Shown here piece after piece: positions 38,244-48,927 of a DNA stretch of 49,153 nt. Under the pieces are notes generated by a model that was not told where the DNA came from, searched no databases, and was given only the letters and a program-made list of their open reading frames with translations. Numbering within the stretch: the stretch's first letter is position 1; each line of letters opens with the position of its first letter. A program made the translations under genes and the position numbers. The DNA comes from an uncultured Acetobacteraceae bacterium (GTDB lineage Bacteria > Pseudomonadota > Alphaproteobacteria > Acetobacterales > Acetobacteraceae): positions 1 to 49,153 of the forward strand of contig CAIXDS010000212.1 of assembly GCA_903918195.1 (NCBI GenBank), in the 5' to 3' direction.

Positions 38244-39164
38244 ATGGCCGCACTTCGTCAGATTGCGTTCTACGGGAAAGGAGGCATCGGCAAGTCGACC
38301 ACCTCCCAGAACACGCTCGCCGCCCTGGTCGAAATGGACCAGAAGATCCTCATCGTCGGCTGCGACCCGAAGGCCGACTCCACCCGCCTGATCCTGAACA
38401 CCAAGCTGCAGGACACGGTGCTGAGCCTGGCCGCCGAAGCCGGCTCGGTCGAGGACCTCGAAATCGAGGACGTGCTGAAGATCGGCTACAAGGGCATCAA
38501 ATGCGCCGAGTCCGGCGGCCCGGAACCGGGCGTCGGCTGCGCCGGCCGCGGCGTGATCACCGCCATCAACTTCCTCGAAGAAAACGGCGCCTATGACGGC
38601 GTTGACTACGTCTCCTACGACGTGCTCGGCGACGTGGTCTGCGGCGGCTTCGCCATGCCGATCCGCGAAAACAAGGCGCAGGAAATCTACATCGTCATGT
38701 CCGGCGAGATGATGGCGCTGTATGCCGCCAACAACATCGCCAAGGGCATTCTGAAGTACGCGCATTCCGGCGGCGTCCGCCTGGGCGGGCTGATCTGCAA
38801 CGAGCGGCAGACCGACCGCGAGGAGGAACTGGCCTCGGCTCTGGCCGCGCGCATCAACACCAGGCTGATCCACTTCGTGCCGCGGTCGAACAGCGTGCAG
38901 CATGCCGAGCTGCGCAAGATGACCTGCATCCAGTATGCGCCCGACTCCAAGCAGTCGCAGGAGTACCGCACGCTCGCCAACAAGATCCACAACAACTCCG
39001 GCAACGGCACCATCCCCACGCCGATCAGCATGGAAGAGCTGGAGGACATGCTGCTCGAGTTCGGCATCATGAAGACCGCCGAGCAGGAACTCGCCGAAAT
39101 CCAGGCCCAGGAAGCCGCTGCCGCCCTGGCAGCCTGCGCCGTGCGTCAGCCTGTCGAGGCCTGA
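38244..39164 (+). CDS. nifH: Nitrogenase iron protein (dinitrogenase reductase), Mo-type
   Basis: A 306-residue NifH. P-loop GKGGIGKST at residues 11-19, cluster ligands Cys99 (PGVGCAGRG) and Cys133 (VVCGGFAMP), and Arg102, the ADP-ribosylation site, are present. The protein is of the Mo-nitrogenase type ([20 protein letters not shown], then [20 protein letters not shown]), not VnfH or AnfH. A commonly conserved stretch RDNIVQ reads RSNSVQ here. It passes electrons to the MoFe protein with ATP hydrolysis. The start has GATAGAGGA upstream. Unusually, no nifD follows; a DUF2478-DUF364 fusion gene does. Confidence 0.97.
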
Positions 39165-39175
39165 TCAGCTCCGGT

Positions 39176-39210
39176 CGTCTCCGCAGGCAGGAATTGTGCC
39201 CGCGGAGACG
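39176..39210 (+). terminator. Stem-loop after nifH, without T-tract
   Basis: Nine-bp stem CGTCTCCGC/GCGGAGACG (39176-39184 with 39202-39210), loop of 17 bases, no T-run. It may stabilise the nifH end of the transcript or reduce downstream expression; it is not a standard rho-independent terminator, so read-through into the fusion gene is expected. Confidence 0.5.
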
Positions 39211-39244
39211 CACGCCGCAGCGAAAACCGACGAGCGGATCAGCC

Positions 39245-46056: not shown

Positions 46057-47104
46057 GGCGCTGGTCGTGCCGGGTGGCATGGCCCGGGCGGCGGTCGTGC
46101 CGCTGCTGGCCGTGGCGTTGGCCGGGACGGTGCTGGGGTCGCTGTGCATCGGCGTCTATCCGGTGCCGCTGGCCACGGTGGCGCGCATTCTCGCCGGCCT
46201 GTGTCTGCCCGAACCGTTCTGCCCGGTGGCGAACTGGACCGATGCGCAACTCGCCGTGGTGGAGGTGATCCGCCTGCCGCGGGTGTTGCTGGCGGTGCTG
46301 GCCGGGGCCGGGCTTGGCTTGGCGGGGGCGACGTTGCAGGGCACCATGCGCAATCCGCTGGTTGGCCCTGATCTGATCGGGATTTCCTCGGGGGCGGCCT
46401 GCGCCGGCATCCTGGCGATTTTGCTCGACTGGCCGGAATGGGGGCTGCTCGCTGCCGCTTTTGCCGGCGGTTTGCTGGCGCTGGCGGTGTCCTGGCTGCT
46501 GGCCGGGTTGTCGCGCGCCGGCGGCGTGCTGCCGCTGATCCTGGCCGGCATGGCGGTGGCGGCCTTCTTCACCGCGGTGCACGGCTTCATCCAGTTCACC
46601 GCCGATCCGGAAAACAAGCTGCCGGCCATCGTCTACTGGCTGATCGGCAGCTTCGCCGGGGCGAGCATGCACAAGGTTGCCATTCTGGCGCCGCCGGTGC
46701 TGGCGGCCGGAGGGGGGCTGCTGCTGCTGCGCTGGCGGATCAATTTGCTTTCGCTCGGCGAACTGGATGCCGCGGCGTTGGGCGTGCGCATCGCCGGCCT
46801 GCGCTGGAGCGTGGTGGCGCTGGTGTCGCTGATCGTCGCCGCCCAGGTGGCGGTCAGCGGTATCATCGGCTGGGCCGGGCTGATCGTGCCGCATTTCGCC
46901 CGCATGCTGACCGGTCCCGACCATCGCCGCCTGCTGCCGGCGGCGGCGCTGAGCGGCGGATTGTTCCTGCTGGCGATGGACGACATCGCCCGCACGTTGC
47001 TGGCCCAGGAAGTGCCGATCGGCATCCTGACCGCCGGCATCGGCACGCCGATCTTCATGCTGCTGTTTTGGCGCACTCAGGGGCGAGGCTGGACCGATGC
47101 CTGA
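46028..47104 (+). CDS. BtuC/FecCD-type ABC transporter permease
   Basis: A 358-residue permease with about ten membrane segments. It has LPRVLLAVLAGAGLGLAGAT, GTMRNPLVGPDLIGISSGAA, LPAIVYWLIGSFAGASMHKV and WAGLIVPHFARMLTGPDHRR, the standard FecCD motifs. It forms the inner-membrane channel for the substrate delivered by the binding protein. The ATG at 46028 overlaps the preceding gene by 29 bases; an ATG at 46079 just before the first membrane helix is an alternative. Confidence 0.93.
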   Translation: MMISHACGGEALVVPGGMARAAVVPLLAVALAGTVLGSLCIGVYPVPLATVARILAGLCLPEPFCPVANWTDAQLAVVEVIRLPRVLLAVLAGAGLGLAGATLQGTMRNPLVGPDLIGISSGAACAGILAILLDWPEWGLLAAAFAGGLLALAVSWLLAGLSRAGGVLPLILAGMAVAAFFTAVHGFIQFTADPENKLPAIVYWLIGSFAGASMHKVAILAPPVLAAGGGLLLLRWRINLLSLGELDAAALGVRIAGLRWSVVALVSLIVAAQVAVSGIIGWAGLIVPHFARMLTGPDHRRLLPAAALSGGLFLLAMDDIARTLLAQEVPIGILTAGIGTPIFMLLFWRTQGRGWTDA

Positions 47105-47855
47105 TCCCGCCATCGATTTTGCTGGGCTGGGCCATGCCTTTCGCCCCGGCCGCTGGGTGTTCCGCCGCTGTTCCGCCACCATCGGGCGTGGGCGCATCGT
47201 CGCTTTGCTGGGCGCCAATGGAAGCGGCAAGACCACGCTGCTGCGCCTGTTGCTGGGGGTGCTGCGGCCGACCGAGGGCAGGCTGGCGGTGCGCGGGCGG
47301 ACCGCCTTCGTGCCGCAATCGTTCCAGTTAGGGTTCGACTATTCGGTGCTCGACGTGGTGCTGATGGGCCGGGCCGGGCAGATCGGCCTGCTGGCGCAGC
47401 CAGCTTCGCGCGATGCGGTGGCGTCGGTGCAGGCGCTCGACCGTTTCGGTCTGGCCGGGCTGGCGCGGTGTCCGTTTCACGAATTGTCGGGCGGGCAGCG
47501 CCAGTTGGTGATGTTCGCCCGGGCGATGGTGGCCGATGCCGACATCTTGATTCTCGATGAGCCGGCCTCCGCGCTCGATCTCAGCAACCAGGCGGTCATT
47601 CTTGAGCAAATTCGTCTGCTGTCGCGCCAGCACGGGCTGACCGTGCTGTTTTCCACCCACCATCCGCAGCATGCCCTGGAGATCGCCGACGAGGCCGTGC
47701 TGATGCTGGACCGCGACCGCTGCGTGCACGGCCCGGCGGCGGAGGTGCTGAGCGAGGCCAATCTGCTGGCCCTTTACGGCATTCCATTGCGGCACCTGCC
47801 GTTCGAGCACGGCGGCGAAATGCTGGCGACGCTGGCTCCGGTCTGGCGCGGCTGA
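47097..47855 (+). CDS. ABC transporter ATP-binding protein (FecE/BtuD type)
   Basis: A 252-residue ATPase. Walker A GANGSGKTT (about residue 40), Q-loop VPQSFQLGF, signature LSGGQRQLVMFARAM, Walker B ILILDEPASALDLSNQ and the switch His in FSTHHPQHALEIAD are all intact. It powers the adjacent permease. Its start overlaps the permease stop by eight bases. Confidence 0.95.
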   Translation: MPDPAIDFAGLGHAFRPGRWVFRRCSATIGRGRIVALLGANGSGKTTLLRLLLGVLRPTEGRLAVRGRTAFVPQSFQLGFDYSVLDVVLMGRAGQIGLLAQPASRDAVASVQALDRFGLAGLARCPFHELSGGQRQLVMFARAMVADADILILDEPASALDLSNQAVILEQIRLLSRQHGLTVLFSTHHPQHALEIADEAVLMLDRDRCVHGPAAEVLSEANLLALYGIPLRHLPFEHGGEMLATLAPVWRG

Positions 47856-47904
47856 ACGGCTGGCGACCAGGTTTTTTCTCCCTCATGACCAAGGCGCTTT
47901 TCCC

Positions 47905-48927
47905 ATGCGATCGCCTCCTTTGCTGTGGCCCGCCGCCCCGCGGAGCACGCGCATTCTGTTCCTGGCCCGTTTCGCGCCGGACGACCCGATTTACGCGGTC
48001 AAGCCGGAGGGGATCGCCTCCGGCTATGCGGAGTATCATTTCCGCCTGTTCGAGGCGTTGCAGAGCATCGGCTACAGCGTGGCCTCGAGTTCCAAGCCGT
48101 ATGCGGCGCTGGTGGCGGGGGGCAATGTCGATTTCGTGTTTTCCCTGCTCAACCGCATGAAGCTGCGCAATCCGGAACTGCTGGTGCCGTCGATCTGCAC
48201 GTATCTGCGCCTGCCCTGCCTCGGCGCGCCGCCCAATATCCGCGCGCTGGCCGAGGACAAGTATCTGAGCAAGCTGGCCTTTGCCGCGCTTGGCCTGCCG
48301 GTGGCGCCGGGGCGGGTCTACCTGCCCGGCGGCACGCTGGAGCCGCCGGAGTTCGCCGGTCCGTATTTCATCAAGGACCGGTTTGGCGCGGCGTCGGAAG
48401 GCGTCACCGAGGCGTCGTTGCAGGATGACTGGCAAGGGGCCGTCCCGGTTGTTGCCGGGTTGCAGGCCGGCGGCAAGGAAGTGCTGGTCGAGCGGTTCTG
48501 CCCGGGCATCGACATCACCGTGCCGGTGCTGCCGCACTCGCCGTACCTGGTGCTCGGCCATGTCGCGCCGCGGTCGGACAAGGTTGGCGGTATTCTCACC
48601 GCCGATTTGAAAACCGATGACCGGCTGGGCAACGAAATGATCGATGTCGGCGCCGCCACCGCGGCGGCGATCGAGGACGACGTGCGCAAGGTGTGGGCGG
48701 CGCTGGGGCCGATCGACTATTTCCGTCTCGACTACCGCTGGAACCCGGCGACGGGACAGCGTTTCCTGATCGAGATGAACATCTGCTGCTATCTCGGCGT
48801 GCGCGGCGCGTTCGGCATGGCCGGCGAGCGGCTCGGCTACAGCCGCACCCAGTTGCTGGCGCATGTGGTGGAATACAGCCTGGCGCGCCAGCGTGGCGCG
48901 CAGGCGCATACCAGCTGGGTGATCTGA
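47905..48927 (+). CDS. ATP-grasp family ligase-like protein
   Basis: A 340-residue protein with the ATP-grasp pattern of D-Ala-D-Ala-ligase-like enzymes. The N-terminal lobe has ILFLARFAPDDPIYAVKPEG; the nucleotide-binding region has GPYFIKDRFGAASEGVTEAS (about residue 155, the ATP-binding lysine) and EVLVERFCPGIDITVPVL; the metal-binding end is IDYFRLDYRWN and FLIEMNICCYLG (Glu-x-Asn). Such enzymes join a carboxylate to an amine through an acyl phosphate. It is the last gene of the TonB/ABC operon, 50 bases behind the ATPase, which suggests that it makes, modifies or processes the transported chelate. Product unknown. Confidence 0.85.
   Translation: MRSPPLLWPAAPRSTRILFLARFAPDDPIYAVKPEGIASGYAEYHFRLFEALQSIGYSVASSSKPYAALVAGGNVDFVFSLLNRMKLRNPELLVPSICTYLRLPCLGAPPNIRALAEDKYLSKLAFAALGLPVAPGRVYLPGGTLEPPEFAGPYFIKDRFGAASEGVTEASLQDDWQGAVPVVAGLQAGGKEVLVERFCPGIDITVPVLPHSPYLVLGHVAPRSDKVGGILTADLKTDDRLGNEMIDVGAATAAAIEDDVRKVWAALGPIDYFRLDYRWNPATGQRFLIEMNICCYLGVRGAFGMAGERLGYSRTQLLAHVVEYSLARQRGAQAHTSWVI

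Follow-up and report, generated by a model that had tools for sequence, protein, structure and literature searches.

The stretch of DNA analyzed here (hereafter the window, 49,153 nucleotides) is contig C212 of the draft genome of an uncultured Acetobacteraceae bacterium, which comprises 6.09 Mb on 410 contigs and is 94% complete and 3.5% contaminated. Behind the nitrogenase gene nifH, the window carries the gene of a DUF2478-DUF364 fusion protein and an eight-gene set that combines a TonB motor and a receptor with an ATP-binding cassette (ABC) importer and an ATP-grasp protein. The genes are as follows.

38244..39164, plus strand: nifH, nitrogenase Fe protein (TIGR01287, 443.5 bits; cut-off 394.35)
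39245..40543, plus strand: DUF2478-DUF4213-DUF364 protein, 432 amino acids (each of the three domains above its Pfam cut-off; DUF364 structure 3l5o, E-value 1.5e-27)
40840..41598, plus strand: tonB (TonB_C, 83.5 bits; the open reading frame opens at 40780, and the ATG at 40840 is a putative start)
41595..42359, plus strand: exbB (MotA_ExbB, 100.4 bits)
42361..42783, plus strand: exbD (ExbD, 92.2 bits)
42780..45017, plus strand: TonB-dependent receptor of the siderophore type (TIGR01783, 264.5 bits; cut-off 223.5; Plug and barrel domains above cut-off; ATGA overlap with exbD)
45019..46056, plus strand: periplasmic binding protein, Peripla_BP_2 (58.9 bits; 4pag, E-value 5.6e-53; predicted local distance difference test score of the model 91.3)
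46028..47104, plus strand: FecCD/BtuC-fold permease (FecCD, 265 bits; nearest solved relative HI1471 (MolB), 2nq2, E-value 3.7e-70)
47097..47855, plus strand: ABC ATPase (ABC_tran, 89.9 bits)
47905..48927, plus strand: ATP-grasp protein, remote to D-Ala-D-Ala ligases (Pfam and PDB matches and a 22-sequence alignment)

All of these genes are on the plus strand, and all of their reading frames are open. From tonB to the ATPase, adjoining genes overlap or almost touch, and the ATP-grasp gene begins 50 bp beyond the ATPase. The TonB_C, MotA_ExbB, ExbD, Plug and TonB barrel, Peripla_BP_2, FecCD, and ABC_tran domains of the window proteins all score above the Pfam cut-offs, and the receptor is encoded together with its own TonB, ExbB, and ExbD. 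The first-pass annotation of the sequence, which described nifH as followed by a DUF2478-DUF364 protein and the eight-gene TonB/ABC set, is borne out by curated models, and no nifDK lies behind nifH. The domains of the DUF2478-DUF364 protein were likewise recovered, together with a DUF4213 domain that had not been named.

Transporter and bracketing proteins

Among solved structures, MolB is the one closest to the permease, with an E-value of 3.7e-70 for 2nq2 versus 1.2e-48 for the next structure. By sequence, the binding protein is closest to 4pag (5.6e-53), followed by YiuA (7.1e-18) and MolA (9.5e-11). The fold matches of its model also begin with 4pag, and since MolA (rank 6) and iron-loaded YiuA (rank 7 onward) rank close together, the ligand is not readable from the binding protein. 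A ligand readout from the model was rejected, as the fold groups with molybdate, iron-catecholate, and uncharacterized binders alike. The likeness to the molybdate or tungstate transporter MolBCA raised in the first-pass annotation holds for the permease but is weaker for the binding protein, which is nearest to 4pag, so molybdate is not specially indicated.

The BtuC fold of the permease and BtuF-like domain matches would also fit a cobalamin or heme importer that lies near nif genes by chance. Cobalamin uptake of the BtuBCDF kind was rejected, as the receptor scores 37.3 bits with the B12 receptor model TIGR01779 (cut-off 599.7) and no Rfam model, the cobalamin riboswitch included, matched in the window at the gathering score. 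The linkage to vanadium nitrogenase (vnf) genes described below recurs in relatives as well, and we consider a cobalamin or heme importer very improbable.

From the operon, a function can be proposed for two orphan proteins, namely the fusion of DUF2478 and DUF364 and the ATP-grasp protein that accompanies it. The latter matches Dala_Dala_lig_C weakly (25.4 bits; cut-off 24), and its identity as a D-Ala-D-Ala ligase was rejected, since it scores 45.7 bits against a curated cut-off of 243; it is a remote ATP-grasp relative only. An E-x-N-x-C-C stretch (E290, N292, C294, and C295) is invariant in the 22 aligned sequences. In two vnf clusters, SBP_bac_6, a third type of binding protein, adjoins the ATP-grasp gene (L019:7961-8989 and L099:17138-18193).

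Linkage to vanadium nitrogenase genes in relatives

A scan for the ATP-grasp protein in one genome per species (84,980 species) gave 68 loci, and the search for VnfD covered 50 of these genomes, with the other 18 loci left out. VnfD scored above the cut-off in 26 of the 50. Among the remaining 24, Rhodomicrobium udaipurense and Blastochloris reach best VNFD scores (710 and 694) that an AnfD would be expected to give, although these proteins are untyped; Rhodomicrobium Az07 scores 309; locus L051 is fragmentary but has a vnfK-like piece; and 20 genomes (16 of Akkermansia or its kin, a Clostridiales bin, Massilia, Paraburkholderia, and Thiomargarita) showed no VnfD match. The ATP-grasp family is thus wider than vnf, yet it is mostly a vnf neighbor in the nitrogen-fixer-type genomes found. 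In Akkermansia and relatives, the ATP-grasp protein occurs at 46–52% identity (16 loci: L032-L034, L037, L041-L043, L045, L048, L050, L053, L054, L057, L058, L062, and L081), and its gene adjoins an APH-family kinase gene at L048.

All nine D subunits typed beside ATP-grasp loci are VnfD, with 881–985 bits (cut-off 823.1), and all lie under the AnfD cut-off. On this ground, a link to Fe-only nitrogenase was rejected for these nine subunits, and a link to methylthioalkane-reductase-like clusters, considered for the D/K-like genes beside ATP-grasp loci, was dropped.

Gene neighborhoods were counted in 28 vnf genomes besides the present one, namely 27 picked by the ATP-grasp gene (one with vnf fragments only) and a Rhodovastum genome (G378). 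DUF364 is found within 20 kb of a VnfD/K-type gene in 20 of them, the ATP-grasp gene in 19, the receptor and FecCD in 6 and 7, respectively, and these two together in 6. When NifX-type genes are added as anchors, the counts are 21 for DUF364, 21 for the ATP-grasp gene, 7 for the receptor, 8 for FecCD, and 7 for receptor and FecCD together. The six genomes with both transporter genes are Rhodopila globiformis, Rhodovastum, two Magnetospirillum (G005 and G009), and two uncultured Alphaproteobacteria (G015 and G022). In Pararhodospirillum (G043), a third Magnetospirillum (G006), and G035, transporter genes adjoin vnfE-type, vup-type (a misnomer for the Phn-type ABC set), or NifX-type genes. Counted from the ATP-grasp locus, receptor and FecCD lie nearby at 4 of 27 loci in vnf genomes, and neither lies near any of the 41 loci from other genomes, some of which are Gram-positive and would have no TonB.

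The transporter genes occur in two orders. In type A, that of the window, the receptor is followed by the binding protein, permease, and ATPase, and in type B by the permease, ATPase, and binding protein, often with a NifD/E-like protein. In Rhodopila globiformis, the operon of the window itself recurs at 74–79% nucleotide identity, with vnf genes downstream. The Rhodovastum atsumiense block comprises vnfH, vnfDGK, vnfA, vnfEN, DUF364, receptor, FecCD, ATPase, binding protein, exbB, exbD, and ATP-grasp genes (names other than VnfD by similarity), and its DUF364 and ATP-grasp genes bracket type B where the window has type A. An extended vnf set, which adds an outer-membrane route in several lineages, is well supported. 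Of the first-pass proposal of a nif-linked uptake of a metal chelate, the linkage to nitrogenase is supported, but the enzyme with which the set recurs is the vanadium nitrogenase and not the molybdenum one. NifD/E-like genes adjoin TonB receptor and FecCD genes, mostly in vnf clusters, at L154:5358-6740 (PF00148) and at L022, L098, L100, L111, and L112 (by similarity).

VnfA-type boxes were searched in the 400 bp upstream of genes as GTWC-N6-GWAC, which is looser than the published GT(T/A)C-N6-GTAC; the motif source is the VnfA box of Azotobacter (PMC9542535). A box lies upstream of 19 of 26 VnfD genes, 12 of 32 DUF364 genes, 10 of 28 ATP-grasp genes of vnf genomes, 5 of 15 receptors, and 2 of 20 NifH genes, and shuffled upstream sequences gave means of 0.1 to 0.3. 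No box was found in the controls, which were ATP-grasp genes without vnf (0/41), operon-internal FecCD (0/24), binding proteins without vnf (0/15), and MAR-like genes (0/13). Three of the five boxed receptors (G023, G024, and G031) are on contigs with no vnf gene seen, and these would be members of the VnfA regulon by the box alone. In the window, one such site stands near the operon.

40809..40822, no strand assigned: weak VnfA-box-like palindrome GTTCAGGGGTGAAC just before tonB (one of two GTWC-N6-GWAC matches in the window, 1.5 expected; position unusual)

The distribution of the binding protein was assessed in three genome samples, in which only the best few candidates per genome were scored. 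Its profile was built from four vnf-linked proteins and thus favors that clade, and 380 bits or more defines the close type. In the order sample (346 genomes), VnfD is above the cut-off in four genomes, to which the VnfD fragment of the present genome is added, and the close binding protein occurs in three, all among these five vnf-positive genomes; 17 other genomes, the two remaining vnf-positive ones included, reach only 145–217 bits. Samples of this kind address the genomic part of what the first-pass annotation had named as contrary to its view, a set that is widespread and unlinked to nitrogenase. The DUF2478-DUF364 fusion was found in 3 of the 397 genomes of the family sample, all vnf-positive. 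In the class sample (385 genomes), VnfD is above the cut-off in one genome (G550), the close binding protein occurs only in the present genome, and weaker relatives with 208–256 bits occur in 12 VnfD-negative genomes. A FastTree phylogeny of 78 binding proteins contains a clade of 38 with a support of 0.996. All 13 members of known genome in this clade are vnf-positive (11 by VnfD above the cut-off and 2 by vnf fragments), most of them having come from genomes picked as vnf-positive, and all 14 binding proteins from vnf-negative genomes fall outside it.

These distributions bear on the alternative that the operon encodes an iron-siderophore importer, co-regulated in vanadium nitrogenase genomes since nitrogenase needs much iron. 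The receptor is of the TonB-siderophore family, and the weaker relatives of the binding protein in the 12 VnfD-negative genomes are in line with this alternative. Molybdenum and Fe-only nitrogenases need much iron too, yet the close type occurs only in vnf-positive genomes of the order sample, and the DUF364 and ATP-grasp genes lie with vnf also in G378, a genome that encodes an additional AnfD-like protein (712 bits, untyped). We regard the iron importer as rather unlikely.

The nifH junction and the draft genome

The control region of nifH and its downstream junction contain the following features.

38072..38087, plus strand: NifA-type upstream activator site TGTCGGACTCAGGACA (TGT-N10-ACA; the sole TGTC-N8-GACA match in the window, 0.27 expected)
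38152..38166, plus strand: sigma-54 -24/-12 promoter TGGCACGCCTCTTGC upstream of nifH (the window contains two exact matches, this one included)
39176..39210, plus strand: core of a strong RNA hairpin between nifH and the DUF364 gene (fold of 39162-39245)

The NifA-type site lies 80 bp upstream of the perfect sigma-54 promoter at 38152, and the two assignments follow the NifA and sigma-54 consensus sequences. The fold of 39162-39245 has a z-score of -4.41, with equal stability in 1 of 200 shuffles, and the hairpin stem recurs behind the second nifH copy of the draft. The window NifH is 91% identical to NifH and likewise to VnfH of Rhodovastum, and the halves of the gene show similar closeness to nifH and vnfH of relatives. 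A SIR2-like gene (37072-37902) lies between nifB and nifH in the window, and directly before nifH in relatives (L119, L121, and L122). Since the molybdenum nif order in the Rhodopila and Rhodovastum genomes examined is SIR2-like gene, nifH, and nifD, the gene before nifH is an ordinary neighbor and only the downstream side is unusual. The SIR2 neighbor and the NifA-type site point to nifH rather than vnfH as the identity of the window gene.

The draft holds a second nifB-SIR2-nifH copy on two broken contigs (C131 and C70), with 85% identity over 3.7 kb and 94.5% within the nifH parts, and a second copy of the vnf region (contigs C51 and C152) with 88.6% identity over 9.4 kb (L088-L091 for these contigs). 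The second copies suggest either that the bin contains another, related organism or that the regions are duplicated. Both contigs of the second nifB-SIR2-nifH copy lack 169 bp from the middle of nifH, and a chimeric join within nifH is thus possible. The window could then be an assembly chimera, in which nifH comes from a normal nifHDK locus and the uptake operon from a vnf locus elsewhere in the genome. Two nifB-SIR2-nifH copies in the draft are in line with such a join, and relatives have SIR2-nifH-nifD, with none seen to carry DUF364 directly behind nifH. On the other hand, the 3' end of the second nifH copy likewise has no nifD behind it and is followed by the same hairpin stem, and the two copies differ at about 5% of sites in the parts compared, so reads should separate them. 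We hold a chimera to be doubtful, though a real possibility.

NifD above the cut-off was not found in this draft, although the same-genus genomes G378 and G330 do have NifD. Of 20 PF00148 matches in the draft, 19 were scanned without yielding a NifD or NifK; for two small matches no model fitted, and the unscanned one is a bch-region match. Present in the draft are VnfK, a fragment of VnfD, and, adjoining vnf genes, two pairs of NifE and NifN. Either the draft has a gap at nifD, or the organism is a diazotroph whose only nitrogenase is the vanadium enzyme. VnfK-, VnfG-, and partial VnfD-type genes are located on contigs C51 and C152, where the typing of VnfK and of the VnfD fragment relied on partial sequences, with scores higher than those of the Anf models and below the full-length cut-offs. 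A Phn-type ABC set of the VodABC kind adjoins the vnf genes of this genome.

Contigs C385, C39, C43, C84, and C262 encode more nitrogenase-like D/K proteins, none above any curated nitrogenase cut-off, and the H protein of C385 is barely above the nifH cut-off (401.1 versus 394.35). A dispersed repeat of about 60 bp, with copies 81–93% alike, is present in the window at 2-135, 10220-10282, 26543-26613, and 37901-37975 and on other contigs of the genome.

Proposed cargo and comparison with known systems

The vanadium nitrogenase fixes nitrogen where molybdenum is scarce, and cells are thought, from Azotobacter work, to fetch vanadium by siderophore-like chelators. Judging from the gene set, its domain families, and the recurrent vnf neighborhood and VnfA-type boxes in relatives, the eight genes encode parts of a TonB-energized uptake system of the metal-chelate type, which has relatives in vnf clusters of several other bacteria. 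We give about an even chance to the reading that this system imports a vanadium chelate, which would feed the iron-vanadium cofactor. Vanadium is the favored cargo, with iron and molybdenum chelates as the rivals. The receptor would take the chelate across the outer membrane, powered by its own TonB-ExbB-ExbD motor, and the binding protein would pass it to the MolB-like permease and the ATPase. In the cytoplasm, the DUF2478-DUF364 and ATP-grasp proteins may make, load, or unload the chelator, and the freed metal would go to NifB/VnfEN. More tentatively, and at clearly less than even likelihood, we propose a vanadophore pathway, in which the two enzymes make or recycle a vanadium chelator and the TonB receptor and MolB-like importer retrieve the vanadium chelate for the vanadium nitrogenase. 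If true, vanadium would for the first time have an outer-membrane route whose genes are known, and this route would exist in two builds, each with its own type of transporter placed between the same pair of enzymes. With this operon, named genes become open to testing in cultured purple bacteria, Rhodopila globiformis among them.

A further alternative takes up molybdenum, the leading option of the first-pass annotation, and reads the operon as a molybdenum-chelate scavenger, which would be switched on together with vnf as both answer molybdenum starvation. The permease nearest to MolB, the nifH with a NifA-type promoter directly upstream, and the control of modABC2 by Azotobacter VnfA1 (PMC9542535) are consistent with it. 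However, the binding protein is only remotely MolA-like (9.5e-11 versus 5.6e-53 for 4pag). In addition, three nitrogen-fixer-type genomes in which VnfD stays below the cut-off (G019, G045, and G047, with best VNFD scores of 710, 694, and 309) have the ATP-grasp gene with neither DUF364 nor the transporter nearby, though molybdenum starvation is expected there too; G047 has a weaker binding-protein/FecCD set elsewhere in its genome. A molybdenum scavenger is distinctly unlikely in our estimate.

Several points weigh against vanadium as the cargo and against the vnf linkage. In the present genome, the set and vnfDGK are on separate contigs, so the linkage is one seen in relatives, and the junction of nifH with the DUF364 gene is known from this one contig. 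The window nifH carries a NifA-type site, not a VnfA-type one, and the VnfA evidence in the window itself is weak, with a lone, oddly placed box near tonB. The boxes of the DUF364 and ATP-grasp genes are not independent, since the two genes are often divergent with a common spacer, and six genomes are in both lists. Among the 28 genomes of the neighborhood count, 27 were picked by the ATP-grasp gene, 20 already have a Phn-type ABC set within 20 kb of VnfD/K, and 22 have no receptor-FecCD pair within 20 kb of vnfD/K, some contigs being cut. In Rhodovastum, a distance of 2.9 Mb separates the relative of the close binding protein from vnf, and the vnf-positive genomes G387, G394, and G550 of the order and class samples have no close binding protein. 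The fold matches of the binding protein include YiuA with iron-catecholate and other ferric-siderophore binders, which favors iron. The VnfA1-dependent TonB operons of Azotobacter are active with vanadium and molybdenum both absent, alongside modABC2 (PMC9542535), and general metal scavenging thus also fits.

The claim of the first-pass annotation that this exact set is undescribed agrees with our search of open-licence PMC papers, in which we found no description of it, but close prior art exists in PMC9542535 and PMC2954201. The same search yielded no paper in which genes of the outer membrane are assigned to vanadium uptake, the nearest being PMC9542535. Compared with MolBCA of Haemophilus influenzae, the window permease is nearest to HI1471 (MolB), and the molybdate protein 3psa has the same fold as the binding protein. 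The window binding protein is, however, closer to 4pag, a TonB receptor and motor are present, and there is no evidence for molybdate. The vanadate ABC transporter VupABC of Anabaena, described as most similar to tungstate transporters (PMC4284476), and VodABC of Azotobacter, a predicted vanadate ABC transporter (PMC9542535), are also linked to vnf genes, but they are ABC importers without TonB parts. The DUF364 family, represented by 3l5o (E-value 1.5e-27 to the window domain), has a published gene-context link to genes for iron, tungstate, molybdate, and vanadium (RPA1384/1385; PMC2954201). The DUF364 domain of the window differs in its fusion to DUF2478 and in its association with a complete TonB/FecCD system.

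The nearest counterparts are the VnfA1-dependent Class B TonB-receptor/ABC operons of Azotobacter vinelandii (Avin_30860, Avin_39890, and Avin_47130), whose receptors are given in PMC9542535 as potential metal-acquisition genes, with the metal unnamed. By description, not by protein sequence, they resemble the window set in having TonB-dependent siderophore receptors in operons with ABC parts under the vanadium nitrogenase activator. One of the three operons ends in a NifD-like gene, and such a gene also accompanies type B sets in the present analysis (e.g., L154 and L111). The window operon differs in having no NifD-like gene, in carrying its own tonB-exbBD, and in being bracketed by the DUF2478-DUF364 and ATP-grasp genes.

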